A stretch of DNA of 36,512 nt, from the NCBI GenBank assembly GCA_021731095.1, contig JAKFYA010000236.1:1-36512 (forward strand). The letters run 5' to 3'. Positions 3 through 17,044 of this stretch are shown piece by piece (positions within the stretch are counted from its first letter, which is position 1; each line of letters begins with the position of its first letter). The translations under genes were made by a program, and so were the position numbers. This stretch comes from Acidobacteriota bacterium. Lineage in GTDB: Bacteria; Acidobacteriota; Vicinamibacteria; Vicinamibacterales; UBA2999. The notes beneath the pieces are model-generated. The model was given only the letters and a program-made list of their open reading frames with translations. It ran no database searches and was not told the DNA's origin.

Positions 3-1010
3 GAGGCCGAGAGCAACCGCCAGGTCTACGAGTCACTCCTGCAGCGCGAGAAGGAACTCCGCGTCGTCAGTAACAGCCGTGCCAACAACGTTCGGCTCCT
101 CGACCGGGCGCAGGTTCCTGGTGGGCCGTTCACGCCTGACATTCCCCGCGCGTGGATGATGGCGATGCTGTTCGGTCTCGGCCTCGGCGCTGCGGCCGCA
201 TTCGCCATCGACTATCTGGACGATACGGTCAAGACACCGGAAGACGTGACCTGGCGACTGAAGCTGGGGTTCCTTGGCCTCGTTCCCAAGGTACGGGGTG
301 ACAGACACCCGTTGTTGTCAGGCCCGGTGCCCCACGACTTCGGCGAATCTTTCAGAGCACTGCGCACGGCCCTCGTGATGAGCAGTCCTGGCCGCGGCAC
401 GCGAGTCATTGCCGTCACCAGCACGCAGCCGCTCGAGGGCAAGACCACGACGGCCGCCAACCTGGCCCTGGCGCTGGCGATCGGCGGTTCCCGGGTGCTG
501 CTGATCGATGCTGACATGCGCCGGCCAAGCCTGCACAAGGCCCTGCGCATGCCCAACGACAAGGGCCTGTCGCACCTCCTGACCGGCCAGGCGAAGATGC
601 GCGAGGTGGTCCACCGCTCCTCGGACCCGAACCTGCTGGTCATCACCGCGGGCGCCACCCCGCCCAATCCGTCGGAGCTGCTCGCCTCGGACGGCATGCG
701 CGGGTTCATCCAGCAGTTGTCGGTTGGTCCCTTCGACTGGGTGATCATCGACACGCCACCGGTGCTGGCCGTCACGGATTCGGTGATCCTGGCACCACTG
801 GTCAACAGCATGATCTACGTCATCGGCTCCGAGATGACACGCTGGAGACTCGCCGAGCGTGCACTGGCCACGCTTCAGGGTGGCAACCCCAAGTCGATCA
901 ATGCGGTCCTGAACCGGGTGGACTTCGATCGCAACCGCTATTACTACACCCGGTACTACGGCCAGAACTTCAAGAGCTACTACGCTGAGAGCAAGTCGGC
1001 GGCAAGCTAG
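3..1010 (+). CDS. Polysaccharide biosynthesis tyrosine autokinase (BY-kinase/Wzc-like), 5' end truncated by the window edge
   Basis: Open frame runs in from position 3 (EAESNRQVYESLLQREKELRVVSNSRANNVRLLDRAQVPGGPFTPDIPRAW...). GNVR/Wzz-like segment followed by Walker A' (STQPLEGKTTTAANLALALA), VLLIDADMRRP and a Tyr-rich C-terminus (RNRYYYTRYYGQNFKSYYAES). Confidence 0.92.
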   Translation, partial: EAESNRQVYESLLQREKELRVVSNSRANNVRLLDRAQVPGGPFTPDIPRAWMMAMLFGLGLGAAAAFAIDYLDDTVKTPEDVTWRLKLGFLGLVPKVRGDRHPLLSGPVPHDFGESFRALRTALVMSSPGRGTRVIAVTSTQPLEGKTTTAANLALALAIGGSRVLLIDADMRRPSLHKALRMPNDKGLSHLLTGQAKMREVVHRSSDPNLLVITAGATPPNPSELLASDGMRGFIQQLSVGPFDWVIIDTPPVLAVTDSVILAPLVNSMIYVIGSEMTRWRLAERALATLQGGNPKSINAVLNRVDFDRNRYYYTRYYGQNFKSYYAESKSAAS

Positions 1011-1050
1011 TTCGCGCAGCCTGACCCTCAGGGCGTCCCTGGCCGCCGGC

Positions 1051-2394
1051 GTGCCGATTCTGGCACTGGCCGCGCTGGGTGGTGCGTACTCCTCCTCGGT
1101 GCTCCCCCTCCTGGCGGCGGCCGCTGTCCTCTTCTTCGCAGGCGGCGGTGCCATCGCTTCCACCCGGGAGACCCGCCTCCTCGACGTCGCCCTCGTGCTG
1201 CTGGTTGTGGCCATGGGCCTGCAGATCCTTCCCCTCCCCTGGTCGTTCATCTCGTCGCTTTCGCCTCGCACGTTCGAGGTCATGGCCTCGCTGACGATGC
1301 TTGATCCGTCAGCCCCGGGTACGCTGAGCATCCGACCCGCCGTCAGTCGCGAGACCCTGATCTCGGCACTCTCTGTGGTGCTGGTGTTCTGGGGAGCGCG
1401 TGGGGTCTTTGACAACGGTGGCCTGCGGCCGGCGGTCAGGCTGCTGTCCTGGGCCGGCCTGGTCGCCGCGCTGGTCGGTCTGGCCCAGCGCGCCACCTCG
1501 CCCATGTTGCTGCTCTGGACCTGGAAGCCGCTGGACCCTGGCGGCAGACCATTCGGCCCATTCGTCAACAGGAATCACTTCGCCTTCTGGTTGCTGCTGG
1601 CGGGAGCTGTGGCGGCGGGCGCCGCCATTTCCCACATCCACGCGCATGGCCTGCTGCGTCGGCGCGCGCTGCGCGACCGGTTCGTGGACCTGCTCGCCGA
1701 CGGTACGGGCGTGATGCTCCTGGGGTCGGCCGCGCTCATGTGGCTGACACTGATTGCCTCAACCTCCAGGGGCGCCATTCTCGGCATGGCCGTGACCTGC
1801 CTGATTGCGCTGGTCATGGCGGGCCGGCGCATCCATTCACGCGCGGCCTTCCGGACCATGATCGTCCTGGTCGTGGCCCTGCTGTCCTGGGGGGTCTGGG
1901 CCAACATTCAGGCGCTGGCCAGCCGGCTGGATCTGAACAGTGGAGACGTCCCGCGCGTTGCCGTCTGGACAGACACCCTGCCGGTCATCTCGGCATTCGC
2001 AGTGACAGGAACTGGCGCCGGCACCTTCGCCGACGCGATGGTCCGCTTCCAGCAACACGAACGTCGCGTGCTGTTCAGCGAGGCTCAGAGCGAGTATCTG
2101 CAGTTGATGGCAGAAGGCGGGCTGCTGCTGGCAGTTCCGGTGCTGGTCGCCCTGCTGGCCTGGTTGCGGCTGTCTCTGATGCGCCTGAAAGCCAGCAGTC
2201 CCGGCTCGACCTGGATCAGACTGGGCGCGCTGGCAGGGCTGTCTGGAGCCGCCGTGCAGTGCCTCTGGGATTCGGCGCTGCGCATGCCGGCCAACGCGAT
2301 GCTGGTGGCCCTGCTCGCGGCCATCGCCGTCCACCAGCGCACGGATGGCGCCGGTTCAGCTGAGGGAAACGGGCGCGGCCCCGAACTCCACTGA
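1051..2394 (+). CDS. O-antigen ligase/polymerase family membrane protein
   Basis: Multi-TM hydrophobic protein; FGPFVNRNHFAFWLLLAGAVAAG resembles the Wzy_C/O-antigen ligase family motif; late conserved block GTGAGTFADAMVRFQ...EAQSEYLQLMAEGG. GTG start. Confidence 0.82.
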   Translation: MPILALAALGGAYSSSVLPLLAAAAVLFFAGGGAIASTRETRLLDVALVLLVVAMGLQILPLPWSFISSLSPRTFEVMASLTMLDPSAPGTLSIRPAVSRETLISALSVVLVFWGARGVFDNGGLRPAVRLLSWAGLVAALVGLAQRATSPMLLLWTWKPLDPGGRPFGPFVNRNHFAFWLLLAGAVAAGAAISHIHAHGLLRRRALRDRFVDLLADGTGVMLLGSAALMWLTLIASTSRGAILGMAVTCLIALVMAGRRIHSRAAFRTMIVLVVALLSWGVWANIQALASRLDLNSGDVPRVAVWTDTLPVISAFAVTGTGAGTFADAMVRFQQHERRVLFSEAQSEYLQLMAEGGLLLAVPVLVALLAWLRLSLMRLKASSPGSTWIRLGALAGLSGAAVQCLWDSALRMPANAMLVALLAAIAVHQRTDGAGSAEGNGRGPELH

Positions 2395-3816
2395 GGCACA
2401 GGCCTGATAGAAGTCTGCCGGGATGCCGCGCGCCGGGCAGAACCGGTCCAGGAACCACGTCACCCGCTCGGCCAGCGCCGCTCCGGCTGGCCATGTCGGC
2501 ACCTGCTCCAGCCACGCGTCAAACACCTCTGACGGCCGTACGCCCTTCTCGCGACAGAGCATCCGGAAGGTCTTGCGATCGCCGATCTCCCGGAGGGCCG
2601 CTTCCAGTCTGAACCCATAGGCCACCTCATCTGGCGACATGGACAGATGGGACTCCACGAAGTAGGGCGGCTCGTGACTGAAACGCAGTCCCATCGCCTC
2701 CGCCTTGCGCCAGAGCTCGGTGCCTGGCAGGACCATCAGGGGAAACACGGCCAGTTCTGGCGGGTCCAGCGTCACGGCAAAGTCGAGCGAGCGGTGGAAC
2801 GAGGCGACGGTCTCTCCTGGAAGTCCATAGATCAGCTGGAGTTCGAAGGCGAGGCCATGCGCCTTCAGGAAGCCGATGCCATCGAGAAACTTCTGCATCT
2901 TCAGGCGGCGTTCGACCGTCGCCAGCACGTCCGCGTCCGTCGTCTGCAGGCCGACTTCCAGAAACGACACGTTGGCCTCGCGCATCAGGGCGGCAAGTTC
3001 GTCATCGATGAACTCGGCCCACACCTCCGCATGCACGGCAATGCGGCGGGGGTTGTGCGCGGCAATGAGCCGGCAAATCGCCTTCGCCCGGTCGGCGTAG
3101 AGATTGAACACCGGGTCCATGAGGTACAGCTCGTCGATATCGCGTTGCAGCCAGAACAGGATCTCGCGCTCCACGCGCGCCAGATCGAACCGCCGGTTCC
3201 GGACCGACAGGTCCTTGTTGTAGAAGCAGAAGTTGCAGCGGAACACGCATCCGCGTTGCGTCTCGATGCACACCACGCGACCAGGCCGGTCAGCATAGGC
3301 GTCGGTATGCGGGGACGGCAGCTCGTTGATGTCCCGCAGGAGTGGGGCCTCAGCATTCTCGATGATGCGGTCGGCCTGGCGATACGCGATGCCAGCCACC
3401 TCGTCGAGTGTGCGTCCGTCCCGCGCGCAGGCCACGACCTCCGCGAACGGCAGCTCGCCCTCACTGCACACCACCACGTCGACGAACGGGTTCGCGGTGA
3501 GCACGGCGGCCGCCACGGGTCCCACCTCAGGCCCGCCAAGGACCAGCAGCACATCGGGCCGAGCCGCCCGGATCAATCTGGCCGCGGCCATCAAGGTCCG
3601 CACATTCCAGACATAGCAGGACAGGCCCACCACGGCCGGCCCGGTAGACAGGATGCGGGCAGCGATGACCTCAGGTGCCGCCTCCTGGTCGAACTCCGCC
3701 AGGTCAATCTCACTGAGGGCATGCCCCGCTCGCTCCACGAGATAGGCCCTGAGGTACAGCAGCGCCAGCGGTATGAAGGACGGGTTCTTGTGAACGGTCG
3801 CCAGGCAGATCTTCAC
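2356..3816 (-). CDS. B12-binding-domain radical SAM protein (candidate RiPP tailoring enzyme)
   Basis: N-terminal cobalamin-binding-like fold (VVGLSCYVWNVRTL...LLVLGGPEVGPV), radical SAM Cx3Cx2C motif CVFRCNFC. GTG start at 3816 (VKICLATVHKNPSF) overlaps the upstream stop (GTGA); the longer track ORF to 3939 is probably over-extended. Confidence 0.85.
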   Translation of the reverse strand: MKICLATVHKNPSFIPLALLYLRAYLVERAGHALSEIDLAEFDQEAAPEVIAARILSTGPAVVGLSCYVWNVRTLMAAARLIRAARPDVLLVLGGPEVGPVAAAVLTANPFVDVVVCSEGELPFAEVVACARDGRTLDEVAGIAYRQADRIIENAEAPLLRDINELPSPHTDAYADRPGRVVCIETQRGCVFRCNFCFYNKDLSVRNRRFDLARVEREILFWLQRDIDELYLMDPVFNLYADRAKAICRLIAAHNPRRIAVHAEVWAEFIDDELAALMREANVSFLEVGLQTTDADVLATVERRLKMQKFLDGIGFLKAHGLAFELQLIYGLPGETVASFHRSLDFAVTLDPPELAVFPLMVLPGTELWRKAEAMGLRFSHEPPYFVESHLSMSPDEVAYGFRLEAALREIGDRKTFRMLCREKGVRPSEVFDAWLEQVPTWPAGAALAERVTWFLDRFCPARGIPADFYQACASVEFGAAPVSLS

Positions 3817-4796
3817 AGGCCGTTTCCCTCGAGACCGATCCCGTGCGCGGACGGCTCGGCTCCCCAGAAGGTGGACTGGTCCGTGGCCGCATGGCGAAGG
3901 CCACCCTGGGCATCCTCGATGCTGACCCGCCACCGCCAATGGATGCTGTCAAACCCGGTCATCTGCAGGCGGACGACATCCCCTGTCCCGACCGGGACAG
4001 CCGCAGGTAGCGGAAAGAAACCCTGCCGGTACTGCGTGCTGTTGTCAGACGGGCTGTTGCCGATGACGATGCCGTCTTCAAGGGTCGCCGAGAACCAGAT
4101 AGCCACCCCGTGCAACGAGCCGGCCCGTTCCATCGCCCACCGCACCTCCGCGTCGAATCCGTACCGGGCAAGCGCGTCGAGCCTGAATGTGGCCACCGCC
4201 ACAGGGCCGGCGAGCGACTCCGCCGGTGCCAACCAGACGGGATACCAGTTGTGGGTAGCCATGCCGCGGAAGCAGGACATGTCAACGCCTTCTCGCGGCG
4301 CATCCCAGCAGGTCACCGCGTCCGCATGCAGGCGCGCGGACTCGACCGGCGCTGCGTGGAGAACCACCAGGTCCGGCATGACCCGCCCGCCCGGGTTGAG
4401 AAAGCGCGTCACGGCGTCGCTGACGCACCGGAGGCCGTCCTTCTGAAGTCCGCAACAGTCGTACGTGTCCGTGACGATAAGGTCCACAGGCTCTGGTAGT
4501 GTGACCTGATCGGACGCCCCCTGGACCAGCACGACACGGTCTGCCACACCGTTCGCCTCGGCCAGCCGACGCACGAGGCCTGCCATGGGATGCGCCTCGA
4601 CCGCATAGACACGCCTGGCGCCTGCGCGCGCCGCCAGGACCGACAACACGCCACTCCCCGCCCCAAGGTCGAGCACGACCATGCCAGGCACGACAGCACT
4701 GGCCAGGGCTGTCGCGTAGCGCGTCAGTCGCTCACCGGTGCCGGCGAGGAGAAACCGCTGCTGCTGGAGAAACTCCGCCGACTCGGGGAATTGCAT
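3813..4796 (-). CDS. PRMT-like class I SAM-dependent methyltransferase (candidate RiPP tailoring enzyme)
   Basis: Motif I VVLDLGAGSGVLSVLAARAGARRVYAVEAHP resembles protein arginine methyltransferases; followed by VDLIVTDTYDCCGL and LNPGGRVMPD. Confidence 0.78.
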   Translation of the reverse strand: MQFPESAEFLQQQRFLLAGTGERLTRYATALASAVVPGMVVLDLGAGSGVLSVLAARAGARRVYAVEAHPMAGLVRRLAEANGVADRVVLVQGASDQVTLPEPVDLIVTDTYDCCGLQKDGLRCVSDAVTRFLNPGGRVMPDLVVLHAAPVESARLHADAVTCWDAPREGVDMSCFRGMATHNWYPVWLAPAESLAGPVAVATFRLDALARYGFDAEVRWAMERAGSLHGVAIWFSATLEDGIVIGNSPSDNSTQYRQGFFPLPAAVPVGTGDVVRLQMTGFDSIHWRWRVSIEDAQGGLRHAATDQSTFWGAEPSAHGIGLEGNGL

Positions 4797-4808: not shown

Positions 4809-5435
4809 CTACAGGCCGTCGCGAAGGATGTCGAGAAAGGCGGGCTCGGACCGGAACCACCCTACGAAGGCCAGTTTCTCGACGGCGCCCGCGATGGGCG
4901 TGACCTGATGCTCAAGGGACTCATCGATACGGAACAGGAGTGCATCTCCTTCCCCGGTGTTGGCCACGTCATCAAGCACGGATCCAGACATCGCACTTCG
5001 CAGGCGGAACACGCCGCCCTCGTACGGGTGGTCTCCCAGATTGATGCTCATGCCGATCAAGCGGTGGTCCACGGCATCGTTGTGCCAGGACACATGGTGC
5101 GCGCCGCCCGGCAACATCCGGTACACCCGTCCCGTGAAGCAGCCAATGGCGCCGCAACCGGTGAGGTTCTGGATGCCGGCATAGACGACAGGGTCGTTCA
5201 CGAGAAAATGCAGGAGACTCACGGTGCCGTCGGCCTCGAGACACTGCTCGGTTCCGAGCCCCTCATGGTCCCGCTCGAGGAAGGTCCCCTGGTCCAGTCG
5301 CTGACGTATCGTCAGGCACAAGTCTGGCGACAGCACACCAGGTACCACCGCGCAGTTCGTGCGGGCAAACTGGTCGCGAACGCTGGACAGCTCATCAACA
5401 GGCCAGAACAGCCGAGACGTCAACGGCCCGGTCAT
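4809..5435 (-). CDS. 2OG-Fe(II)-dependent oxygenase, copy 2
   Basis: HxD motif (SWHNDAVDH) plus distal His (LEHQ) and Lys 11 residues later. ATG at 5435 lies 2 nt after the stop of the upstream paralogue; extension of the ORF to 5528 is unlikely to be coding. Confidence 0.82.
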   Translation of the reverse strand: MTGPLTSRLFWPVDELSSVRDQFARTNCAVVPGVLSPDLCLTIRQRLDQGTFLERDHEGLGTEQCLEADGTVSLLHFLVNDPVVYAGIQNLTGCGAIGCFTGRVYRMLPGGAHHVSWHNDAVDHRLIGMSINLGDHPYEGGVFRLRSAMSGSVLDDVANTGEGDALLFRIDESLEHQVTPIAGAVEKLAFVGWFRSEPAFLDILRDGL

Positions 5436-5437
5436 TG

Positions 5438-6118
5438 TCAAACCCCCGCCCTGGCGCGAGCCAGGCCGACTTCCTCGGACCCAAACTCTTCGAGCAGTGA
5501 GACGAGAGACAGATCCGATACGAACCACCCTGCGAAGGTGGTACGCGGGACAGTGCCTGTGACCTCCGTGGCCCGATGCTCAAGGCCAGAGGCAATGCGG
5601 AACAGGACCGCATCTCCAAGGCCGGTATTCGCGATATCACACAGCAATCGCTGTCGCGGATCATCCAACAACTGGAAGTGCCCGCCTTCGTAGATGTCGA
5701 CGCTGAGGTTGAGGCTCACGCCAATGCGGCGCCCCTGCACGTTGTCCGAGTGCCACGAATCAAAGTGTCCGGCTCCCGGGACAAACCTGAACACACGCCC
5801 ACGAAAGCCTGACAGCGGCTCACAGCCGGTCAGTTCCTCGACGAGACGCAGCAACGCCGGGTCGTTGAAGGCGAAGTGCAGCAGGCTCAGGGCCGGATTC
5901 GGCATCATGGCGTGATCCGCCGCGATGTCGTGATGCTTCTCGTCAAAGAACGCCGACTCCGTCACATGCCTGAGCGCAAACGCCAACAGGTCGTCAGACA
6001 GCACCTGGCGAAGGTGCACGTAACGGTGTTCCGAAAACTGTGCTGACAGCGTGCGTCGTTCAGAGTCCGGCAACGGCGCAGCCAGGCCGTGTGGTGTCAG
6101 TTGCAGCATGGGGGGCAA
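5438..6118 (-). CDS. 2OG-Fe(II)-dependent oxygenase, copy 1
   Basis: HxD motif (DSWHSDNV) plus distal His (LEHR) and Arg 11 residues later; YEGGHFQL and ANTGLGDAVLFRI blocks shared with the downstream copy. Start could be 6118 or 6109. Confidence 0.83.
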   Translation of the reverse strand: MPPMLQLTPHGLAAPLPDSERRTLSAQFSEHRYVHLRQVLSDDLLAFALRHVTESAFFDEKHHDIAADHAMMPNPALSLLHFAFNDPALLRLVEELTGCEPLSGFRGRVFRFVPGAGHFDSWHSDNVQGRRIGVSLNLSVDIYEGGHFQLLDDPRQRLLCDIANTGLGDAVLFRIASGLEHRATEVTGTVPRTTFAGWFVSDLSLVSLLEEFGSEEVGLARARAGV

Positions 6119-7116
6119 GTAGACAGGTCGGACAGGACTGCGTCACGCACCGTCGCAAGGAGGGGAAGCCGTCGAGGATAGGACAACCGCCTGACCGGTA
6201 TGCTCCCCGCCAGGTTCGTGACAAAGGCAAACTGCCGGGACAGACGTTCTGCGGTGGCCACGCGCCCATTGAAGGTATTGGCAATCAGCGCCAGGCACGC
6301 CTGGCGCAATGGCAAGTGGCGGATCCGAACCTGCGCATGGGCTTGCGCACGAGCCTCTGAACGACGCGCTTCGCCGATGACATAAATGGCCCGAAGCGGT
6401 ACAGCCGTCAGCGCCTGCTCACCATCCACCATGGGCATGGCCAGCTTGGGGGCCAGCAAGGGCATCGTGATGCCGGCCGGACGCCCCTGTCGCAATCGGG
6501 TCGCCATGCGGCGCATGAGCTTGATGCGTGGTGGCCCCAGGTGGGCCATCAGGGCTGTACCCTGGCGGGTGACGACCAGCTGGTCATCAGTGACCAGGTG
6601 ATACCCCGCCTGCACGAACGCAGCAGCCAGGCTGGATTTGCCGCGCCCTGATGGACCGAGGAACGCCACGCCCTGCCCGTTGATGGACACGACGCTTGCA
6701 TGAAGCGGTTCGAGACCCTGCTGGACCAAGGCGTAAGAGAGTGCGGGTCCGAGCATAAGGGCTTCGAACAGTTCCAGACCTGTCCGTCCCCCACGACGCC
6801 CAATGATGCGCGCGCCATCCCCGGTGACCAGGAACTCGATGGAGCGCCCCCAACGGAGATAGGACCCGCCATCATCAAGGGCGGCCCGTTCGAACCAGGA
6901 GGAGTGACGGGTGCGCGGCAGGAGGGCCGCAGAGGCAAACAGGCCATCATGGACAGATGTCGTCCCATCTTCAAGGGAGACGTCCCAGGACGGGGCGTAT
7001 GCGGATGACACGGGAGCAAACGGCAGGCGCCACGCGCTCGACAGGCGAACTGAAAAGAGATCGTATAGGTAGCGAGGCCCCTGGCCTGTGCCTCCCACCG
7101 CTGCGACCGGGGACAT
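6097..7116 (-). CDS. HPr kinase/phosphorylase-like (HprK-related) kinase of the lasso-peptide cluster type
   Basis: P-loop GPSGRGKSSLAAAF preceded by LHASVVSINGQGVAFLG, then GYHLVTDDQLVV, typical of HprK-related kinases. Start overlaps the precursor stop (TGATG). Confidence 0.85.
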   Translation of the reverse strand: MSPVAAVGGTGQGPRYLYDLFSVRLSSAWRLPFAPVSSAYAPSWDVSLEDGTTSVHDGLFASAALLPRTRHSSWFERAALDDGGSYLRWGRSIEFLVTGDGARIIGRRGGRTGLELFEALMLGPALSYALVQQGLEPLHASVVSINGQGVAFLGPSGRGKSSLAAAFVQAGYHLVTDDQLVVTRQGTALMAHLGPPRIKLMRRMATRLRQGRPAGITMPLLAPKLAMPMVDGEQALTAVPLRAIYVIGEARRSEARAQAHAQVRIRHLPLRQACLALIANTFNGRVATAERLSRQFAFVTNLAGSIPVRRLSYPRRLPLLATVRDAVLSDLSTCPPCCN

Positions 7117-7280
7117 CAGGACTTGGTGGTCTTCCGGATCCCGTCGCTCTTCTTGCCGCCCTTTGCCAGCGCCAGATGGCGCAGGTCTCCGTAGACCGTC
7201 AGCTTCGGCGTCCTGTAGGCCTTGCGCGACGTCTCGCCCTGGTCTCTCGATTCTGAATCAGACGATGACACGTTCTTCAT
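7116..7280 (-). CDS. Lasso-peptide precursor (54 aa): MKNVSSSDSESRDQGETSRKAYRTPKLTVYGDLRHLALAKGGKKSDGIRKTTKS
   Basis: Translated by hand from the reverse complement; below the 60-aa cutoff of the supplied track. Leader motif YRTPKLTVYGDL matches YxxPxLxxYGxL; Asp is a possible ring acceptor; AGGAG Shine-Dalgarno 8 nt upstream (7289-7293); lies between a lasso cyclase (ATGA overlap) and an HprK-like kinase (TGATG overlap). Confidence 0.88.
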   Translation of the reverse strand: MKNVSSSDSESRDQGETSRKAYRTPKLTVYGDLRHLALAKGGKKSDGIRKTTKS

Positions 7281-9217
7281 GACCTGCTCTCCTGCCTGCT
7301 AGGTGAACCGCGCCCGACTGTCGACATCGGACCAAAGAACTGCTGCAACCAGACTTCCAGCGCCAGCACATCCGTGAGTCCCCGGCTCGCGTCGAACGTG
7401 TCGTTCGCCAGTGCCGCATGGGCCTCACGCAGGGCCCGGTCCGCTCCGGCCCGGACATAGCCTCGCTGCACCGCTTCGCCCGTCGCCGCCAGCCGCGAGA
7501 CGATCCGATTATAGTCGCGGGACACACCGTCATTCACCAGCGACGTGAAGCTGACTTTGGTGCGCCTGGACGCAATCGCCTCTGGCAGCACACCACGCAG
7601 ACTTTCCCGGAGCAGCGCCTTGGGCACCCCGCCAGCGCACAGCACGTCACCGGGAATAGCCATCAGGAAGGCGACCAGGTCCCGGTCCAGGAACGGGAAC
7701 GCGTGCTCGAGTCCTTCGATAGCCCCGGCCTTGTTGTGCCACTCCAGGCAGAACACGGCGTACCGGGACCTGGCCTCCCGGTAGAGACTGGCGCCGTGGG
7801 CCGTGAATCCGGCCGGCACCCGGACAGGCGGGCGCTCGGCGCTCCGGCGAAACGCGTCGGTGTACCAGCCTCGGACATCGCGCCGTGCCGCCAGACGCTG
7901 ACGCGCGCGGCGAAGGCGGCGCAACACCGCCATCGGCAGGTGTCGCACGACCAGCCCTCTCAGGAGTCGCGTGGTGAAGTAGGAGGCATCCGTGACGCTC
8001 AGCCACTCACCAAAGCCCCGCGCCTGCCGCCAGGCCTCGCGCCAGGCGCCCTGTTCGACCAGGTCCAGCAGATAACCATCATCTGCCAGGAACTGGTCGC
8101 CCCAGTCGCCCGACAGCAACACCCGGACGCCCTTGGACCTCACAAACCGGTTGAACGCCTGGTCGCTGGTCCACTCCATATCGAGGGATGGCACCTCGAC
8201 GTGCCAGACCCCCCGGTCCACCTCATCGACCATGCCCAACTGCGGATGCGGGAAGCGATGGGACTGGAGGCCGGTAGCGACCTCGACCGCTCTGAGAAAC
8301 GCTTCCTCGTCAGCCTTCGACCCTGGTGGCGGCGTATAGGTGACGCCAACCGGGGACTGGGCATGGCCGCGCCCCTGGTGGCGCAGGTGCTCCGCCACGC
8401 AGAAGATCGAGGACGAGTCCACGCCACCACTGAGCGACACGCCGACCGGCGCTGCGCTGCGCAGGCGACGCGACACGGCCTGCTCAAAATGTTCGCGAAA
8501 GGCCTCGGCGTACGCGCCGGGCGACGCAAGCCTGATGCGTGCGCCGGGATCGAAGTCCCAATACCGGCGTGTCCGTGCCTCGCGGCCGCGCACCACGACC
8601 TGATGGCCTGGCAACACGCTGAAGACCTGGTCGAACACTGTCAGGCCCTGCGTGTCCTCGGACATCAGGGCATTGAAGTAGAAGTCTGCGATGCATGCGT
8701 CGCACGGTGCGACGTGCGCCTCCGGGTGTGCCAGCAGGGCTTTCACTTCGGTGCCGAACAGTAGGTGCGTCGGCCCCTGCTGGTAGTAGAGGGGTCGTAC
8801 TCCCATGGCATCGCGAGCAAGGCAGAGCATGCGTGTCGCGGTCTGGTAGGCCGCAAGGGCGAAGTCGCCCAGGAGGTAGTCGGGAGCCGCCTCGCCCCAT
8901 CGCGCGTAGGCCGACAGCGCCAGGTTCTCGTCTGGCGTGTCCGCGCGAAGATGGTGGTCGCCCAGCCTCGCGAGCAGGTCGTCACGGTTGTCGAGTCGGC
9001 CATCAAAGGCGATGACCCAGCGATCGTCCCGGCAGACCTGGGCCAACGCTGGCGCCTCAGCGTCCCCGGGAGCCCAGTCGCGTACGGCACACCCGAACGA
9101 CGCATCCCGGAAATGCCGTTCGACGCCACGGTGAGCCATGGCCGCAGACATCGCCCGCAGTTCCGGTGCCCCGGCCAGACGTTCGTCGAAATTGAGGACG
9201 CCGCAGATGCCGCTCAC
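7277..9217 (-). CDS. Asparagine-synthetase-like lasso-peptide macrolactam synthetase (C protein)
   Basis: N-terminal glutaminase-like domain SGICGVLNFDERLAG...MAHRGVERHF; ATP-binding VGVSLSGGVDSSSIFCVAEHL; AFPFLDRDLVAFLMAIP; adjacent to PqqD-like and B2-like genes. GTG start at 9217 preferred over the track ATG at 9373. Confidence 0.88.
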   Translation of the reverse strand: MSGICGVLNFDERLAGAPELRAMSAAMAHRGVERHFRDASFGCAVRDWAPGDAEAPALAQVCRDDRWVIAFDGRLDNRDDLLARLGDHHLRADTPDENLALSAYARWGEAAPDYLLGDFALAAYQTATRMLCLARDAMGVRPLYYQQGPTHLLFGTEVKALLAHPEAHVAPCDACIADFYFNALMSEDTQGLTVFDQVFSVLPGHQVVVRGREARTRRYWDFDPGARIRLASPGAYAEAFREHFEQAVSRRLRSAAPVGVSLSGGVDSSSIFCVAEHLRHQGRGHAQSPVGVTYTPPPGSKADEEAFLRAVEVATGLQSHRFPHPQLGMVDEVDRGVWHVEVPSLDMEWTSDQAFNRFVRSKGVRVLLSGDWGDQFLADDGYLLDLVEQGAWREAWRQARGFGEWLSVTDASYFTTRLLRGLVVRHLPMAVLRRLRRARQRLAARRDVRGWYTDAFRRSAERPPVRVPAGFTAHGASLYREARSRYAVFCLEWHNKAGAIEGLEHAFPFLDRDLVAFLMAIPGDVLCAGGVPKALLRESLRGVLPEAIASRRTKVSFTSLVNDGVSRDYNRIVSRLAATGEAVQRGYVRAGADRALREAHAALANDTFDASRGLTDVLALEVWLQQFFGPMSTVGRGSPSRQESRS

Positions 9218-9232
9218 AGGTAGACTGATCCT

Positions 9233-9532
9233 ATGACGAAAGTAACCCTGTCCGATGCGGTCAGGCCGGGGGCCAACGTCCTGTTCCGCGAGCTTGAAGG
9301 CGAAGGCATTCTCTTGAGCCTCGAGAGCGGAAAGTACTTCGGCCTCGACGCGGTCGGCACGCGGATCTGGCAACTGCTCGGCGCCGGTCCGTCACTCACC
9401 GGCGTCTGCGAGACGCTCGCCGCGGAATTCGATGTGGAGCGCGCCACCATCGAGGCCGACCTGCTGGCCCTGGTCGCGGAACTCTCGTCCCACGGACTCG
9501 TGCTGGTGGCGGAGCACGCCCCGTCGGCATGA
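9233..9532 (+). CDS. PqqD-like RiPP recognition element (lasso B1)
   Basis: 99 aa; LLSLESGKYFGLDAVGTRIWQLL...CETLAAEFDVERATIEADLLALVAELSSHGLV is the characteristic PqqD pattern. Confidence 0.9.
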   Translation: MTKVTLSDAVRPGANVLFRELEGEGILLSLESGKYFGLDAVGTRIWQLLGAGPSLTGVCETLAAEFDVERATIEADLLALVAELSSHGLVLVAEHAPSA

Positions 9533-9993
9533 TGGCCACCGGCGAGGCGTGGCTCGAACGCGTCGCCTGGGTTCGACAGGAGTGGCCGCTGATCGGCGAG
9601 GCGATGCTGGCCGCACTGGTGGTGGAGACGGGCCTCCGCGCCACCTCGCATCCCCGCCTGTGGCACTGGGCCGGGGTTGTCCCTCGCGACATGGCCTCCC
9701 GGCCAGACCCGGCGCTGCTCTGGGCCATCCTCCGCGCCAGCTACTGGGCATGCCTGCTGCTGCCGGTGCGTGGAACCTGCCTCCGTGAAAGCCTGGTGGC
9801 CGCGCGCCTGCTGTCGCGCCGCGGTCACCCCGTCACCGTGCAGGTGGGCGTCCGCAAGGCCGGTCCCCGTCTGGACTCCCATGCCTGGCTCGAAGATGGC
9901 GATGGACGCGCGCTCACCGATCCCCTTGCGGGGTACGCCCCTCTGATCGCCGACACGCATGACCGAACAGCTCTGCCGGATCCTGCGCGGTAA
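9529..9993 (+). CDS. Lasso-peptide leader protease (B2, transglutaminase-like)
   Basis: Cys-His-Asp arrangement: RGTCLRESLVAARLL...DSHAWLEDGDGRALTDP. ATGA overlap with the B1 gene. Confidence 0.9.
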   Translation: MMATGEAWLERVAWVRQEWPLIGEAMLAALVVETGLRATSHPRLWHWAGVVPRDMASRPDPALLWAILRASYWACLLLPVRGTCLRESLVAARLLSRRGHPVTVQVGVRKAGPRLDSHAWLEDGDGRALTDPLAGYAPLIADTHDRTALPDPAR

Positions 9994-11110
9994 CCCGGTC
10001 GACTGGCCACCAGACGCCGCCGGTGCCGAGACCTTGCAGCGGGAGGCCTATGAGCATGGCGTCCATACCCTGGTCGCGGCACGGCTGTCGAATCCGTCGT
10101 ATGCCGACTGCCCGATCTGGGTCCGGCAACCGTTCGCGCGTGAACGCGTGGACGAGGCCGCTGAAGAGCAACTGGTACGCCAGTCGATCCGGTCAGTCAT
10201 CGCCGCGTGCGCCAGTGCGGGCCTGCACCCGCTCATCTTCAAGGGTGCCGCCCTCGCCTTCACCCACTATGACGACCCGAGCGACCGTCCCTATGTGGAT
10301 GTCGACCTTCTCGTCCGACCGGGCGAGGCGCGCCTGGCGGCACAGGTGCTCGAATCGCTGGGCTACCAGGCCGCCGTCAGCGTGACCGGCGCGCTGCTGG
10401 CGGATGCCCCGGATGCGACCACCATCGATCGGTATGCGCCCAGCTCGCAGGTCCCGTTCACGAAGCGTGATGCCCGGGGAACGCCGCTCGAGATCGACCT
10501 GCACTGGCGCCCCACAATTCCCCAGGTGTTTGCCCAGGTGTTCGACCTGGATGCGTTGCACGCCGACTCGGTCGCCGTGCCGGCCCTGGGTCCGCAGGCG
10601 CGCGCGTTTGGACCCGTTCATGCGCTGGTGCTGGCCTGCCTGCATCGCCTCGCCCACCACCACGGCAGCGACCGGCTGATCTGGCTGTACGACCTGCACC
10701 TGCTGGGGTCACGTCTCACGACGGGTCAGGTCACAGCGCTACTCGAACTGGCGCGTGCGCATCAGGTGGCCGGGGTCTGCCTGGATGGACTGACCCTGGC
10801 CAGGCAGGCCTTCCAGAGCCCGTTCCCGGACGCACTCATCGAAGGGCTCCGCGAGGCGGCCGCTGCCAGTGACGAGCCGTCCGCCATGTATCTGCATCAT
10901 CAGGTTCGCCAGATGGACGTGCTGCGCGCAGACCTCGCGGCCCAGCCCAACCTCTCCGCGCGCATCCGCCTGTTGCGCGAACACCTCTTTCCACCGCCTG
11001 CCTATCTGCGCCAGCGTTACGGCGCACGCGCGTCCCTCTGGCTGCCCTGGCTGTATGTCCGGCGTGCGGTGTCCGGTGCACGCCGGTGGATGACCTCGCC
11101 ACGCCCCTGA
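9959..11110 (+). CDS. Nucleotidyltransferase-family protein (NTP_transf_5-like, lasso-cluster associated)
   Basis: LIFKGAALAFTHYDDPSDRPYVDVDLLV (KG..L....Y..p..R...DiDlLv pattern) and PLEIDLHWRP; overlaps the end of B2. Confidence 0.8.
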   Translation: MTEQLCRILRGNPVDWPPDAAGAETLQREAYEHGVHTLVAARLSNPSYADCPIWVRQPFARERVDEAAEEQLVRQSIRSVIAACASAGLHPLIFKGAALAFTHYDDPSDRPYVDVDLLVRPGEARLAAQVLESLGYQAAVSVTGALLADAPDATTIDRYAPSSQVPFTKRDARGTPLEIDLHWRPTIPQVFAQVFDLDALHADSVAVPALGPQARAFGPVHALVLACLHRLAHHHGSDRLIWLYDLHLLGSRLTTGQVTALLELARAHQVAGVCLDGLTLARQAFQSPFPDALIEGLREAAAASDEPSAMYLHHQVRQMDVLRADLAAQPNLSARIRLLREHLFPPPAYLRQRYGARASLWLPWLYVRRAVSGARRWMTSPRP

Positions 11111-12377: not shown

Positions 12378-12977
12378 TCACACCTTCGGCCCCGGGTGTT
12401 CCCATCGGCCACGGGCACTGATCCAGAACGACAGCGCAATGAGACGGACATCCAGCCAGAAGCCGGCACGCCGGCAGTAGAGCGCGTCGAAACGGAACTT
12501 CTGCGGTCGCGGCAGGTCACGCCGCGCATAGACCTGGGCCAACCCGGTCAGCCCCGGACGCACGGCGTGTCGCGCCACGTAGCCGGGAATCTCCTCCAGA
12601 CGCACGAAGCGTCCATCGCCACGTGCCTCGATTTCGCCCACCGCCAGGGGGCGAGGGCCGACGAAGCTCATGTCGCCAATGAAGATGTTCCAGAGCTGAG
12701 GCAGCTCATCAAGCGCCATGGCGCGCAACAGGCGACCCACACGGGTGATGCGCTGGTCATTGGCCACCACCTGCCTGGCAGGTTCGACTGACGCCGCCAC
12801 GAACATCGACCGGAACTTGTAGGCGGTGAATGGCCGTCCGCCACGACCGACTCGCGGCTGGGTGAAGAACACCGGGCCCCCATCCTCCAGCCGGATCGCC
12901 AGGGCGACCAGCAGCCACACCGGTGCGGACAGAACGAGCCCGAGGCCAGACAGACACAGGTCGAACAGGCGTTTCAT
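12378..12977 (-). CDS. Undecaprenyl-phosphate sugar phosphotransferase (initiating bacterial sugar transferase)
   Basis: MKRLFDLCLSGLGLVLSAPVWLLVALAIRLEDGGPVFFTQPRVGRGG...YKFRSM...DELPQLWNIFIGDMSFVGPRP...RPGLTGLAQV. Confidence 0.95.
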   Translation of the reverse strand: MKRLFDLCLSGLGLVLSAPVWLLVALAIRLEDGGPVFFTQPRVGRGGRPFTAYKFRSMFVAASVEPARQVVANDQRITRVGRLLRAMALDELPQLWNIFIGDMSFVGPRPLAVGEIEARGDGRFVRLEEIPGYVARHAVRPGLTGLAQVYARRDLPRPQKFRFDALYCRRAGFWLDVRLIALSFWISARGRWEHPGPKV

Positions 12978-12987
12978 GGGTTGCCCG

Positions 12988-14202
12988 CTACCGCACGCGT
13001 CCCGCGATCAGTCTGCGAAACAATGACGCGTAGGCTTCAACCTGCCGAGGACGGTCGAACCGCAGCCCCGCCTCTCGTGCTCGCGCCCCCATGGCGCGCA
13101 CCAGGTCTGGCGCGGCACGCAGGTCCCTGATGCGCGTGGCCAGGGCCACGCCGTCGCCCGGTGGCACCACCACGCCGCAGCCGTGTTCGCGGGCCAGCGT
13201 CACCAGTTCGCAGTCGTCCTCGACCGCGGCCACAAACGGCCGACCTGCGGCCAGGATGCTGTAGACCTTGCTCGGCACGATGTAGCCCGCCAGGCCAGGC
13301 CGCAGCGACACCAGGAAGAGATCGGCGGCGGCATACGACAGCGCCATGTCCGCACGCGGTTGATAGGGCAGGAACATCACGTGCGAGAGCCCTCGTGCAG
13401 CGGCCTGCGCCTCAAGCGACGCGCGACGCGCACCATCGCCGACAAACACGAAGCGGATGTCGGGGTCGTCCCGCAACTCGGCCGCCGCATCCAGCACGAC
13501 GTCCAGGTTCTGCGACAGGCCGATATTGCCGGCGTGCATGACCACGAACGCCTGCTGCAGGCCATGGGCGCGTCTGAAGGCGTTGTCCGGCGGACCGGGT
13601 GACAGCGCCGCGCAGTCGGCCCAGTTGTCGATGACGACGATCCGGGACGGCTCGGCGCCTTTGCCCTCCACGAGACGCCGCTTCATCGTGTCGCCAAGCG
13701 CCACGACCGCATCCGCCGTGCGGACCAGGAAGCGTCCGACCTGCTGAAGCACGGCATTGACCGTGGGGCTGCGGAAGTCCTCGAGCAGGACGGCCACTTC
13801 AGGAAAGACGTCCTGGCAGAGAAACACGAACGGCGCCCGCATGCGTCGCGCCGCACACCACCCGGCCAGACCGATGATTGGCGGGTCTGTCATGGCCATC
13901 ACGACATCGGCCCGAGGAACCCGGAGAGCCGCCCACAGCGCAGACACGAAGTACGACAGGTAGTTCATGGCCCGACCGGCAAAGCGGCGCGGGTCATGCA
14001 CGGTGCCGGCGGCACGCACGATTCGCACGCCGTTCCGCACCTCCTCAGCCGGCAGCGGGCCAGCGTGGCGGAGCGGGTACCCAGTGACTACCGTGACCTG
14101 GCAACCGTGGTGTGCCACCAGATCCTCGGCCAGTTCGGTGAGCAGCTGCCCTGTCGCGCCGAAATCCGGCCAGTACGACCGGTTGAAGATGCAGACCTTC
14201 AC
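12988..14202 (-). CDS. Glycosyltransferase family 4 (WbuB-like)
   Basis: FNRSYWPDFGATGQLLTELAEDL...; C-terminal PSKVYSILAAGRPFVAAVEDDCELV typical of WbuB-like GT4. Confidence 0.88.
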   Translation of the reverse strand: MKVCIFNRSYWPDFGATGQLLTELAEDLVAHHGCQVTVVTGYPLRHAGPLPAEEVRNGVRIVRAAGTVHDPRRFAGRAMNYLSYFVSALWAALRVPRADVVMAMTDPPIIGLAGWCAARRMRAPFVFLCQDVFPEVAVLLEDFRSPTVNAVLQQVGRFLVRTADAVVALGDTMKRRLVEGKGAEPSRIVVIDNWADCAALSPGPPDNAFRRAHGLQQAFVVMHAGNIGLSQNLDVVLDAAAELRDDPDIRFVFVGDGARRASLEAQAAARGLSHVMFLPYQPRADMALSYAAADLFLVSLRPGLAGYIVPSKVYSILAAGRPFVAAVEDDCELVTLAREHGCGVVVPPGDGVALATRIRDLRAAPDLVRAMGARAREAGLRFDRPRQVEAYASLFRRLIAGRVR

Positions 14203-15944
14203 CGCTTCTCGAGCACGTGACTGCCCATCACCAGCACATCCATGTCCGTTCGGAGGAAGCAGTCGAGCGCCTGCGCCGGCAGATGCACGATCGGCTCGTT
14301 CTCGTTGAACGACGTGTTCAGCAGAATCGGAACCCCCGTCCGCTCGCGAAAGGCATTGATGAGCGCCCAGTACCGGGCATTGGTCGCACGACTGACCGTC
14401 TGGAGTCGTCCTGACCCATCCACATGTGTGACGGCCGGTATCTCCGCCCGACGCTCAGGCCGCACGGGATACACCTGAATCATGAACGGGTCAGGCACGG
14501 CGCCCACGAAGTAATCGTCAAGGGCGTCTTCGGCGATGGAGGGCGCAAAGGGCCTGAACTTCTCACGAAACTTGATACGCGTGTTGATGATGTCACGCAT
14601 GTCTGCGCGCCTCGGGTCGGCCAGGATGCTCCGGTTGCCAAGTGCGCGCGCTCCCCACTCCATCCGTCCCTGAAACCAGCCGACCACATTCCCGGCGGCA
14701 ATCCGATCCGCCGTCCAGGCACACAGGGTCTCCTCGTCCGGAATCACGGAGTGAGTGGCCCGTGCCAGCACATCCGCGTGACGCGCGTCGATGGCGTCGG
14801 CAATCTCGGCATCGGTGAAGGCGGGTCCCCAGTAGCCGTGCTCCATGACACACGCCCGGGCGCCACCGCCGGCATGCCAGGTGTGCAGCGCGGCTCCCAG
14901 CGCAGTGCCGTTGTCGCCGGAGGCGGGCTGCACGAAGATCTCCCGAAACGGTGTCTGCTCGCGAATCTTGCCGTTCGCCACCGAGTTCATGGCGCACCCG
15001 CCCGCGAGGCACAGACGGTCGAGCTTCGTGCGGGCGTGCAGCGCGCGCAGCACAGCAAACGCCGCTTCCTCGTAGACGGCCTGCAGCGACGCCGCCAGAT
15101 CTTCATGTCTCGACTCGAGCGGATCGCCCGGTCGCCTGGCTGGACCCAGGAGCCGCTCCATCTTCGGCGTGAAGACCGTGCCAATTGTCGGTGAGCCCTC
15201 ATCCCAGGTCATCGACACGCCGCCTGACCAGTGACTGAAGTAGGCCAGGTCAAGCGACACGTCCCCATCTCCCGACACCCGCACCAGTTGCCGCAATTCC
15301 CGGACAAAGCGCGGCGTCCCGTAGGGAGCCAGGCCCATGACCTTGAACTCGTCGCCGTAGCCGGGAAAGCCCAGGAACTGCGTGACCGCCAGATAGAGCA
15401 GCCCAAGCGAGTGCGGGAAGTAGACACGGCGATCGACCGTCAGCGACGTGCCGCGGCCGACACCCGTCGAGGTGCTGACAAAATCGCCGAATCCGTCGAT
15501 GGCACAGACCGCCGCCTCGTCGAACGGGCTCGCGAAGAAACTGCTCGCCAGATGCGCCGGGTGGTGCTCGACCGGACGAAACCGCGCCCGCACATGGGCG
15601 GGGTCAAGACCCAGCGACTGGGCGAGTCGGTCCGGCACCTGCGAGACGCTGGCCGCATTCCGTCCACGGTCCACGAGCATCCGGGGGTGTGGCAGTCGCC
15701 GGAGCGCAAAGAGCGCCTTTCGCCAGAGGTGCGCACGCGGGTCTCTGCTGATGGCGAAGAGGTCCACGTCGGCGGCCGTCGCACCAGCCATCTGCAGGCA
15801 CACCTGCATGGACTGGTCGGGAAAGCCCGCCCAGTGCTTGACCCGGCGAAAGCGCTCTTCCTCGACCGCTGCGACCAGTCGCCCGTTGTCGAGCAGCGCC
15901 GCCGCGACGTCGCCGTGATAGGCGTTGAGGCCCATGATCAGCAC
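14199..15944 (-). CDS. Carbamoyltransferase (NodU/CmcH/TobZ family)
   Basis: VEEERFRRVKHWAGFP; HHPAHLASSFFASPFDEAAVCAIDGFGD; LAGGCAMNSVANGKI; QGRMEWGARALGNRSILADPR; LNTSFNENEPIV. Confidence 0.94.
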   Translation of the reverse strand: MLIMGLNAYHGDVAAALLDNGRLVAAVEEERFRRVKHWAGFPDQSMQVCLQMAGATAADVDLFAISRDPRAHLWRKALFALRRLPHPRMLVDRGRNAASVSQVPDRLAQSLGLDPAHVRARFRPVEHHPAHLASSFFASPFDEAAVCAIDGFGDFVSTSTGVGRGTSLTVDRRVYFPHSLGLLYLAVTQFLGFPGYGDEFKVMGLAPYGTPRFVRELRQLVRVSGDGDVSLDLAYFSHWSGGVSMTWDEGSPTIGTVFTPKMERLLGPARRPGDPLESRHEDLAASLQAVYEEAAFAVLRALHARTKLDRLCLAGGCAMNSVANGKIREQTPFREIFVQPASGDNGTALGAALHTWHAGGGARACVMEHGYWGPAFTDAEIADAIDARHADVLARATHSVIPDEETLCAWTADRIAAGNVVGWFQGRMEWGARALGNRSILADPRRADMRDIINTRIKFREKFRPFAPSIAEDALDDYFVGAVPDPFMIQVYPVRPERRAEIPAVTHVDGSGRLQTVSRATNARYWALINAFRERTGVPILLNTSFNENEPIVHLPAQALDCFLRTDMDVLVMGSHVLEKR

Positions 15945-17044
15945 AGCTTGCCTACCTCATCCAGGCCGAGCGCCTGACGGACGCATGCCTGGGTCTGCTC
16001 TGGAGAAAACCGGTCCCTGATGGTGGCCATGGCCTCGGCCGACAGCCGGGCACGCCAGTGCGCGTCCGTCAGCAGGCGAATGATGGCCGCTGCCAGTCGA
16101 GCCCCGCCGTCCGTCTCCGGATCCACAATCACGCCGTCCACGCCGTGGGTGATGATCTCCTCGGGGGCGCCGGGTCGCGCCACGCACGGCGTGCCAGCCG
16201 CCATCGCTTCGAGATACACCAGTCCAAATCCCTCGCCGGCGCTGGGCATCACGAACGCAGAGGCGTCGCGATAGAGCGCCGCCAGCGTCGGCGCATCCAC
16301 GCGCCCGGTGAAGACGACGGCACCGGTCAGTCCTGCCCCACGGGCCACGGCCTCCAGCCTGGCCCGATCATCCCCGTCACCCGCAATGACGAGCCGGGCA
16401 TCAGCCACAGACTCGCGCACCCGAGGCCAGATGTCGAGCAGCGCGTCGTGGCCTTTGTACCGTTCCGCCGCGGACATCCGCCCCACAATCAGTGCGTACG
16501 GGCCGTCAATCGCCCGGTCACCCGCGGGCACGACCGGGGGCACACCGGGATGGCAGACCCGCACAGCCGCCGTTGCCAGCTCCGGATGTGTGGCGTGAAA
16601 CCGATCCACCGTGTGTCGCGAGATGGCAATGCGACACCAGGCCCGCTCCAGCGCCGCCCGCTCGCGCCGCCGCAGTGGCTTCCAGACTTCGATGCCGTAC
16701 ATCACGGCGGCCAGCCGCGCGCCACGGCGAAGCAGCGGCAGCGCCACGGCCAGCAGATGCACATGGAGACCGACCACCAGGGTCCTGGCACCGACCGCTG
16801 CGCACGTCAGGCCCCACCATGCGAATCTGACGCGACTGCCAGCCGCCGCTCGAAAGCCGATGGCCGGGTCCAACCCCTCGGGCCGCACCGCATCGGTGAG
16901 CGACCAGACCTCGAGGGCCCCTCCTGTCGCACGCATGGCATCCGCAAGCAGGGCCACATACTGCCGCGACACCTCGGCAATGCCGTCTGAGCCGGCGAGC
17001 CCTGGCGTGAGCACAATCACCCGACTCGTGGCCACTGCCTCCAT
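15938..17044 (-). CDS. Glycosyltransferase family 4
   Basis: IVGRMSAAERYKGHDALLDIWP...PSAGEGFGLVYLEAMAAGTPCVA. Confidence 0.88.
   Translation of the reverse strand: MEAVATSRVIVLTPGLAGSDGIAEVSRQYVALLADAMRATGGALEVWSLTDAVRPEGLDPAIGFRAAAGSRVRFAWWGLTCAAVGARTLVVGLHVHLLAVALPLLRRGARLAAVMYGIEVWKPLRRRERAALERAWCRIAISRHTVDRFHATHPELATAAVRVCHPGVPPVVPAGDRAIDGPYALIVGRMSAAERYKGHDALLDIWPRVRESVADARLVIAGDGDDRARLEAVARGAGLTGAVVFTGRVDAPTLAALYRDASAFVMPSAGEGFGLVYLEAMAAGTPCVARPGAPEEIITHGVDGVIVDPETDGGARLAAAIIRLLTDAHWRARLSAEAMATIRDRFSPEQTQACVRQALGLDEVGKLC

Follow-up and report, generated by a model that had tools for sequence, protein, structure and literature searches.

The question raised by this locus is whether a 54-residue reading frame, set between the genes of a lasso cyclase and an HprK-like kinase in an acidobacterial genome, encodes the substrate of the enzymes that surround it, and if so, what sort of product those enzymes would make of it. 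The window referred to throughout is the whole stretch of DNA that was analysed, 36,512 nucleotides in length, and its relevant features are collected in Table 1.

Table 1. Features of the lasso locus and its surroundings in the window.
Feature	Position	Strand	Evidence or remark
B12-binding radical SAM enzyme, start uncertain	2356..3939	-	PF04055, PF02310
PRMT-fold methyltransferase, recurrent lasso partner	3813..4796	-	PF22528 7.4e-15; PRMT6 4e-29; neighbourhoods
2OG-Fe(II) oxygenase 2, start uncertain	4809..5528	-	PF13640 5.2e-8
2OG-Fe(II) oxygenase 1, overlaps kinase end	5438..6118	-	PF13640 9.4e-8
HprK-like lasso kinase (K)	6097..7116	-	PF07475 5.4e-9, above cut-off
Lasso peptide precursor (A), 54 aa	7116..7280, stop codon included	-	profile search, family alignment
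C-terminal Ser of core (Ser54)	7119-7121	-	
Predicted core	7119..7166	-	register from conserved leader spacing
Predicted ring acid, Asp8 of core	7143-7145	-	ring bond predicted
Ala37, leader position -2	7170..7172	-	Thr in 57/60 relatives
Leader motif YRTPKL (YxxPxL), residues 22-27, positions -17 to -12	7200..7217	-	alignment A1; spacing per PMC10368454
Lasso macrolactam cyclase (C)	7277..9217	-	NF033535 3.5e-94, PF00733 (asparagine synthase domain)
AGGAG ribosome-binding site, 8 nt 5' of precursor ATG	7289..7293	-	within 3' end of cyclase gene
B1, discrete RRE (PqqD family)	9233..9532	+	NF033536 4.3e-15 (under curated cut-off), PF05402 8e-19
B2 leader peptidase	9529..9993	+	NF033537 62.2 bits, cut-off 33 bits
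Nucleotidyltransferase-like protein (N)	9959..11110	+	PF14907 1.4e-34
Priming sugar transferase of exopolysaccharide locus, outside lasso set	12378..12977	-	PF02397

A precursor gene between cyclase and kinase

A preliminary description of this DNA had proposed a hidden lasso precursor here, preceded by a strong AGGAG 8 nt upstream and locked between the cyclase and kinase genes. Translation of the minus-strand frame gives MKNVSSSDSESRDQGETSRKAYRTPKLTVYGDLRHLALAKGGKKSDGIRKTTKS, identical letter for letter to the peptide reported there, and both the AGGAG and the tight packing were confirmed: the cyclase stop and the precursor ATG share ATGA (7277-7280), and the precursor stop and the kinase ATG share TGATG (7114-7118). 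GC content by codon position is 0.48/0.50/0.83, third-position rich as in the neighbouring genes, and a mechanical listing of open reading frames with a 40-aa minimum includes the frame. NCBIfam model NF033528 (lasso_cyano) matches leader residues 20-42 at 4.5e-5 with 23.3 bits, below its curated cut-off of 33; an annotation pipeline could well leave the precursor unnamed when this closest NCBI model stays under its cut-off, which would account for any lack of annotation.

Homology searches bore out the proposal of a hidden precursor. A profile of six homologues from which the window sequence was left out recovered the frame in the window with an E-value of 1.8e-15, the next frame reaching 0.5, and recovered it at 2.4e-14 against a larger frame set. 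Across the whole genome, an incomplete draft, the precursor was the sole credible match (runner-up 0.18) to a profile that included its own sequence. With the single peptide as query, relatives were found in 7 of 99 related genomes, a tally that counts the window's own, with seven further places in the six others; the preliminary description had made its case depend on homologues next to lasso cyclases, and all seven adjoin one. An alignment search extended the family to 33 of the 162 genomes of the order, window's own included, where the weaker matches are short leaders and those traced are located among lasso genes. Sixty distinct precursors, other phyla included, were then assembled that adjoin cyclase, kinase or B2 genes; since this adjacency was required for entry to the set, it is not a statistic. 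The window cyclase alone, as query against the genome contigs collection, returned no relative.

The neighbouring enzymes agree with this assignment, with cyclase, B1 and B2 all adjoining the precursor. The cyclase likely starts at the GTG at 9217, and near its N-terminus (MSGICGV, window 9205-9217) it retains a Cys at the place of the glutaminase nucleophile of asparagine synthetases. The closest solved structure to B1 is TbiB1 (5v1u; E 1e-13), and recognition of [Y/W]xxPx[L/V/I..] leaders by discrete lasso RREs has been established (PMC13381572). A single B2 was found in the incomplete draft genome. The 54-residue frame encodes a lasso peptide precursor, an addition to the phosphorylated lasso class whose tailoring is predicted to be heavy and to depart from the usual pattern; it is ordinary in kind and interesting in its tailoring, and represents no new kind of system.

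Gene architecture varies among the relatives. Tandem precursors occur in some, up to three in L075, and in L012 (6596-8941) cyclase and precursor occupy one 782-codon open frame, either as a fusion or with an internal GTG as precursor start. Three loci (L014:1979-2398, L077:10513-11472 and L090:9823-10314) encode leaders of the lasso type in which position -2 is Val or Ile and the chain continues as a larger domain, roughly 100 aa long and beginning CWIAEA(L/I)(Y/F)G, with kinase and cyclase genes adjoining.

Leader, predicted cut site and core

Leaders read by discrete RREs carry Tyr at -17, Pro at -14 and Leu at -12 (PMC10368454), and the residues that fall at these places in the window peptide, Tyr22, Pro25 and Leu27, are invariant in alignment A1. 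The spacing from this motif to the cut site is identical across the 60 precursors, and counting from Tyr22 puts the predicted cut after Leu38, leaving the core AKGGKKSDGIRKTTKS. A core beginning at Gly41 (GGKKSD...) was rejected, as it would mean a ring of six residues and violate the fixed spacing. The Ala that opens the predicted core is shared by 12 of the 60 precursors. Asp at core position 8 lies within positions 7-9, where Asp or Glu is expected in lasso precursors with a discrete RRE; the first acid within positions 7-10 is at position 8 in 36/60 precursors and at position 9 in 14/60, so that Asp8, at the family's commonest ring-acid position, is the natural ring partner. The core tail has no aromatic plug residue, and threading through the isopeptide ring is thus uncertain. 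Elsewhere in the family, 23 of the 60 cores end in Cys-Leu (for example L075, L080, L083, L084, L110 and L130).

The unusual residue of the leader is Ala37, at position -2, where Thr otherwise predominates (57/60); Ala is found in 2/60, common only to the window precursor and to L116 from Terriglobia, which has the same Ala-Leu end. It might be supposed that the precursor is decaying or inactive, loss of Thr at -2 having halted leader removal, and experiments on BsfA of Bradymonas sediminis lend this some weight: there the native residue at -2 is Ile, and the I(-2)A substitution abolished cleavage by B2 (PMC10368454). However, the frame, ribosome-binding site, overlaps, core and enzymes are all intact in the window, the Ala-Leu end recurs in L116, and Ala(-2) precursors have already been predicted (Kretsch 2023, as cited in PMC10368454), so decay appears unlikely. 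Ile at -2 is accepted experimentally outside the window system (PMC10368454), and Ala37 is therefore no bar to class membership. BsfA resembles the window system in belonging to a kinase-bearing Gram-negative lasso cluster, in its ring to position 8, which for the window core is predicted, and in its non-Thr residue at -2, but differs in having Ile at -2 and a phosphorylated Ser3, where the window has Ala and, at core position 3, Gly.

Predicted phosphorylation and the proposed pathway

The kinase motif, as defined in PMC10368454, is intact, with His139, a GxxGxGKS loop and the Asp-Asp pair. In paeninodin and pseudomycoidin the kinase targets the C-terminal Ser, and for pseudomycoidin a second protein has been tied to a hexose on the phosphorylated Ser (PMC9266682); in BsfA the kinase modifies ring residue Ser3, aided by B1 (PMC10368454). 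With Ser as its last residue and Gly as its third, the window core favours the tail as the site, and phosphorylation is most likely at the C-terminal Ser. The window also resembles the paeninodin and pseudomycoidin clusters in its split B1 and B2, cyclase, HprK-like kinase, nucleotidyltransferase and precursor ending in Ser, and judged by sequence it has the residues expected of that type, namely the kinase His, P-loop GKS and Asp-Asp together with Ser54 of the precursor. It differs from them in Ala at -2, Ala at core position 1, a divergent gene order and the addition of oxygenases, a PRMT-fold methyltransferase and a B12 radical SAM enzyme. A further difference is that the kinases nearest to that of the window (L009, L011) serve cores without a terminal Ser, and the C-terminal site is accordingly not conserved.

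A pathway can be proposed in which B1 would bind the leader (residues 1-38) through YxxPxL and the HprK-like kinase, presented with the precursor by B1, would phosphorylate a core hydroxyl, most likely that of the C-terminal Ser; the nucleotidyltransferase-like protein may then extend that phosphate. B2 would cleave after Ala-Leu(-1), and the cyclase would link the amine of Ala1 to the side chain of Asp8, giving an 8-residue ring and an 8-residue tail. Further marks would probably come from the two oxygenases and from the PRMT-fold methyltransferase. What the analysis establishes is the open reading frame, its gene family, the fixed neighbourhood and the enzyme families, whereas we infer where the leader is cut, which bond closes the ring, where the phosphate is placed, how the steps follow one another, what the oxygenases and the methyltransferase modify, and that the tail is threaded. 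It is supported by the leave-one-out match, the homologues beside lasso cyclases, the cyclase, B1 and B2 families, the intact kinase motif, the overlaps on both sides and Asp8 at the preferred position, as well as by the combination of kinase, nucleotidyltransferase and C-terminal Ser known from pseudomycoidin (PMC9266682). It is weakened by the rare Ala(-2), the L009 and L011 cores, the plug-free tail and the incompleteness of the draft genome. Taken together, the probability that the frame encodes a precursor from which a phosphorylated lasso peptide is made as proposed is put at about 85%.

A real precursor could also yield a linear phosphorylated peptide, with no closed lasso, as in the LPP family, whose cluster core likewise consists of kinase, RRE and nucleotidyltransferase (PMC13381572), and the lack of an aromatic plug in the tail would suit such a product. 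This outcome is improbable, as the window and the surroundings of most relatives include a full lasso cyclase and a B2, whereas LPPs rely on a signal-peptidase-like enzyme and differ in their leader motif. That the frame arose by chance, as its shortness and the overlapping plus-strand frames of 99 and 64 aa might suggest, is refuted by the homologues, and the leave-one-out match, family conservation at the same gene position, ribosome-binding site and codon-position GC leave such an origin a negligible probability.

A PRMT-fold methyltransferase in an exopolysaccharide setting

Beyond the kinase the minus-strand genes encode two 2OG-Fe(II) oxygenases and then a PRMT_C methyltransferase; a B12 radical SAM enzyme follows, tied to the lasso pathway by position alone. 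Within the order the methyltransferase gave 30 matches in 27 genomes, 29 of them with one or more of cyclase, kinase, B1 and precursor in their vicinity; the exceptional match is on a short contig, with a nucleotidyltransferase as the only lasso-type gene nearby. In a species-wide collection, a few of whose loci are the same records as the order genomes, a methyltransferase alignment found 80 loci, with a lasso cyclase in 29/80 and an HprK-like kinase in 36/80. Lasso-bearing loci there include Nitrospirota, Binatota, Rokubacteria, Betaproteobacteria, Gemmatimonadota and Thermoleophilia, and about half of the 80 have no lasso gene nearby. From its position and recurrence, the window methyltransferase may act on the precursor peptide.

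Comparison with PRMT6 showed the same Rossmann core, PRMT_C barrel region and HW motif near the end, but the double-E loop that binds guanidinium, sought against PRMT6 and in the family alignment, was absent. The first Glu is replaced by Asp110 (Asp being invariant in the 13-row alignment), and the second is Lys in the window protein and is not conserved as Glu across the family. Given this replacement, and given that four partner cores (L110, L130, L139 and L154) are without any Arg or Lys, the enzyme is PRMT-like in fold and not an established arginine methyltransferase. Arginine methylation as its general role was not supported, Arg being present in 25/46 cores beside it versus 8/14 (p=1.0). 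Met (p=0.0002) and Cys-Leu core ends (p=0.01) are commoner beside the methyltransferase, in tests uncorrected for kinship of the sequences; for that reason, and because the window core has neither Met nor a Cys-Leu end, no target is claimed. No report joining lasso peptides with an arginine methyltransferase, or HPr kinase with a methyltransferase, was found in the literature searched, which covered few subscription journals; this weakly suggests that the association of the PRMT-fold enzyme with lasso genes is new.

The lasso cluster is embedded in an exopolysaccharide locus (window 156-2394 and 12378-17044), with the priming sugar transferase 5.3 kb from the precursor. In 16 of the 33 order genomes the contig with the precursor also carries such a transferase no more than 17 kb away, against 0.76 expected, a comparison in which the radius was picked after seeing the data and the expected value ignores kinship among the genomes. 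A tentative and speculative idea is that the PRMT-fold family lost its arginine pocket and, across several phyla, modifies phosphorylated lasso peptides at a site other than arginine, and that in these acidobacteria the decorated peptide might work with the exopolysaccharide of the surrounding genes.

Paeninodin-like clusters in capsule loci have been published for Bacilli (PMC13381572), and the window adds another phylum, Acidobacteriota, to those in which phosphorylated lasso clusters lie within polysaccharide loci. The peptide provides a concrete candidate substrate for the kinase, nucleotidyltransferase, two oxygenases and PRMT-fold methyltransferase of one locus, and makes testable which -2 residue B1 and B2 accept, which sites acidobacterial lasso kinases use, and which group is methylated by a PRMT-fold enzyme that lacks the arginine pocket.
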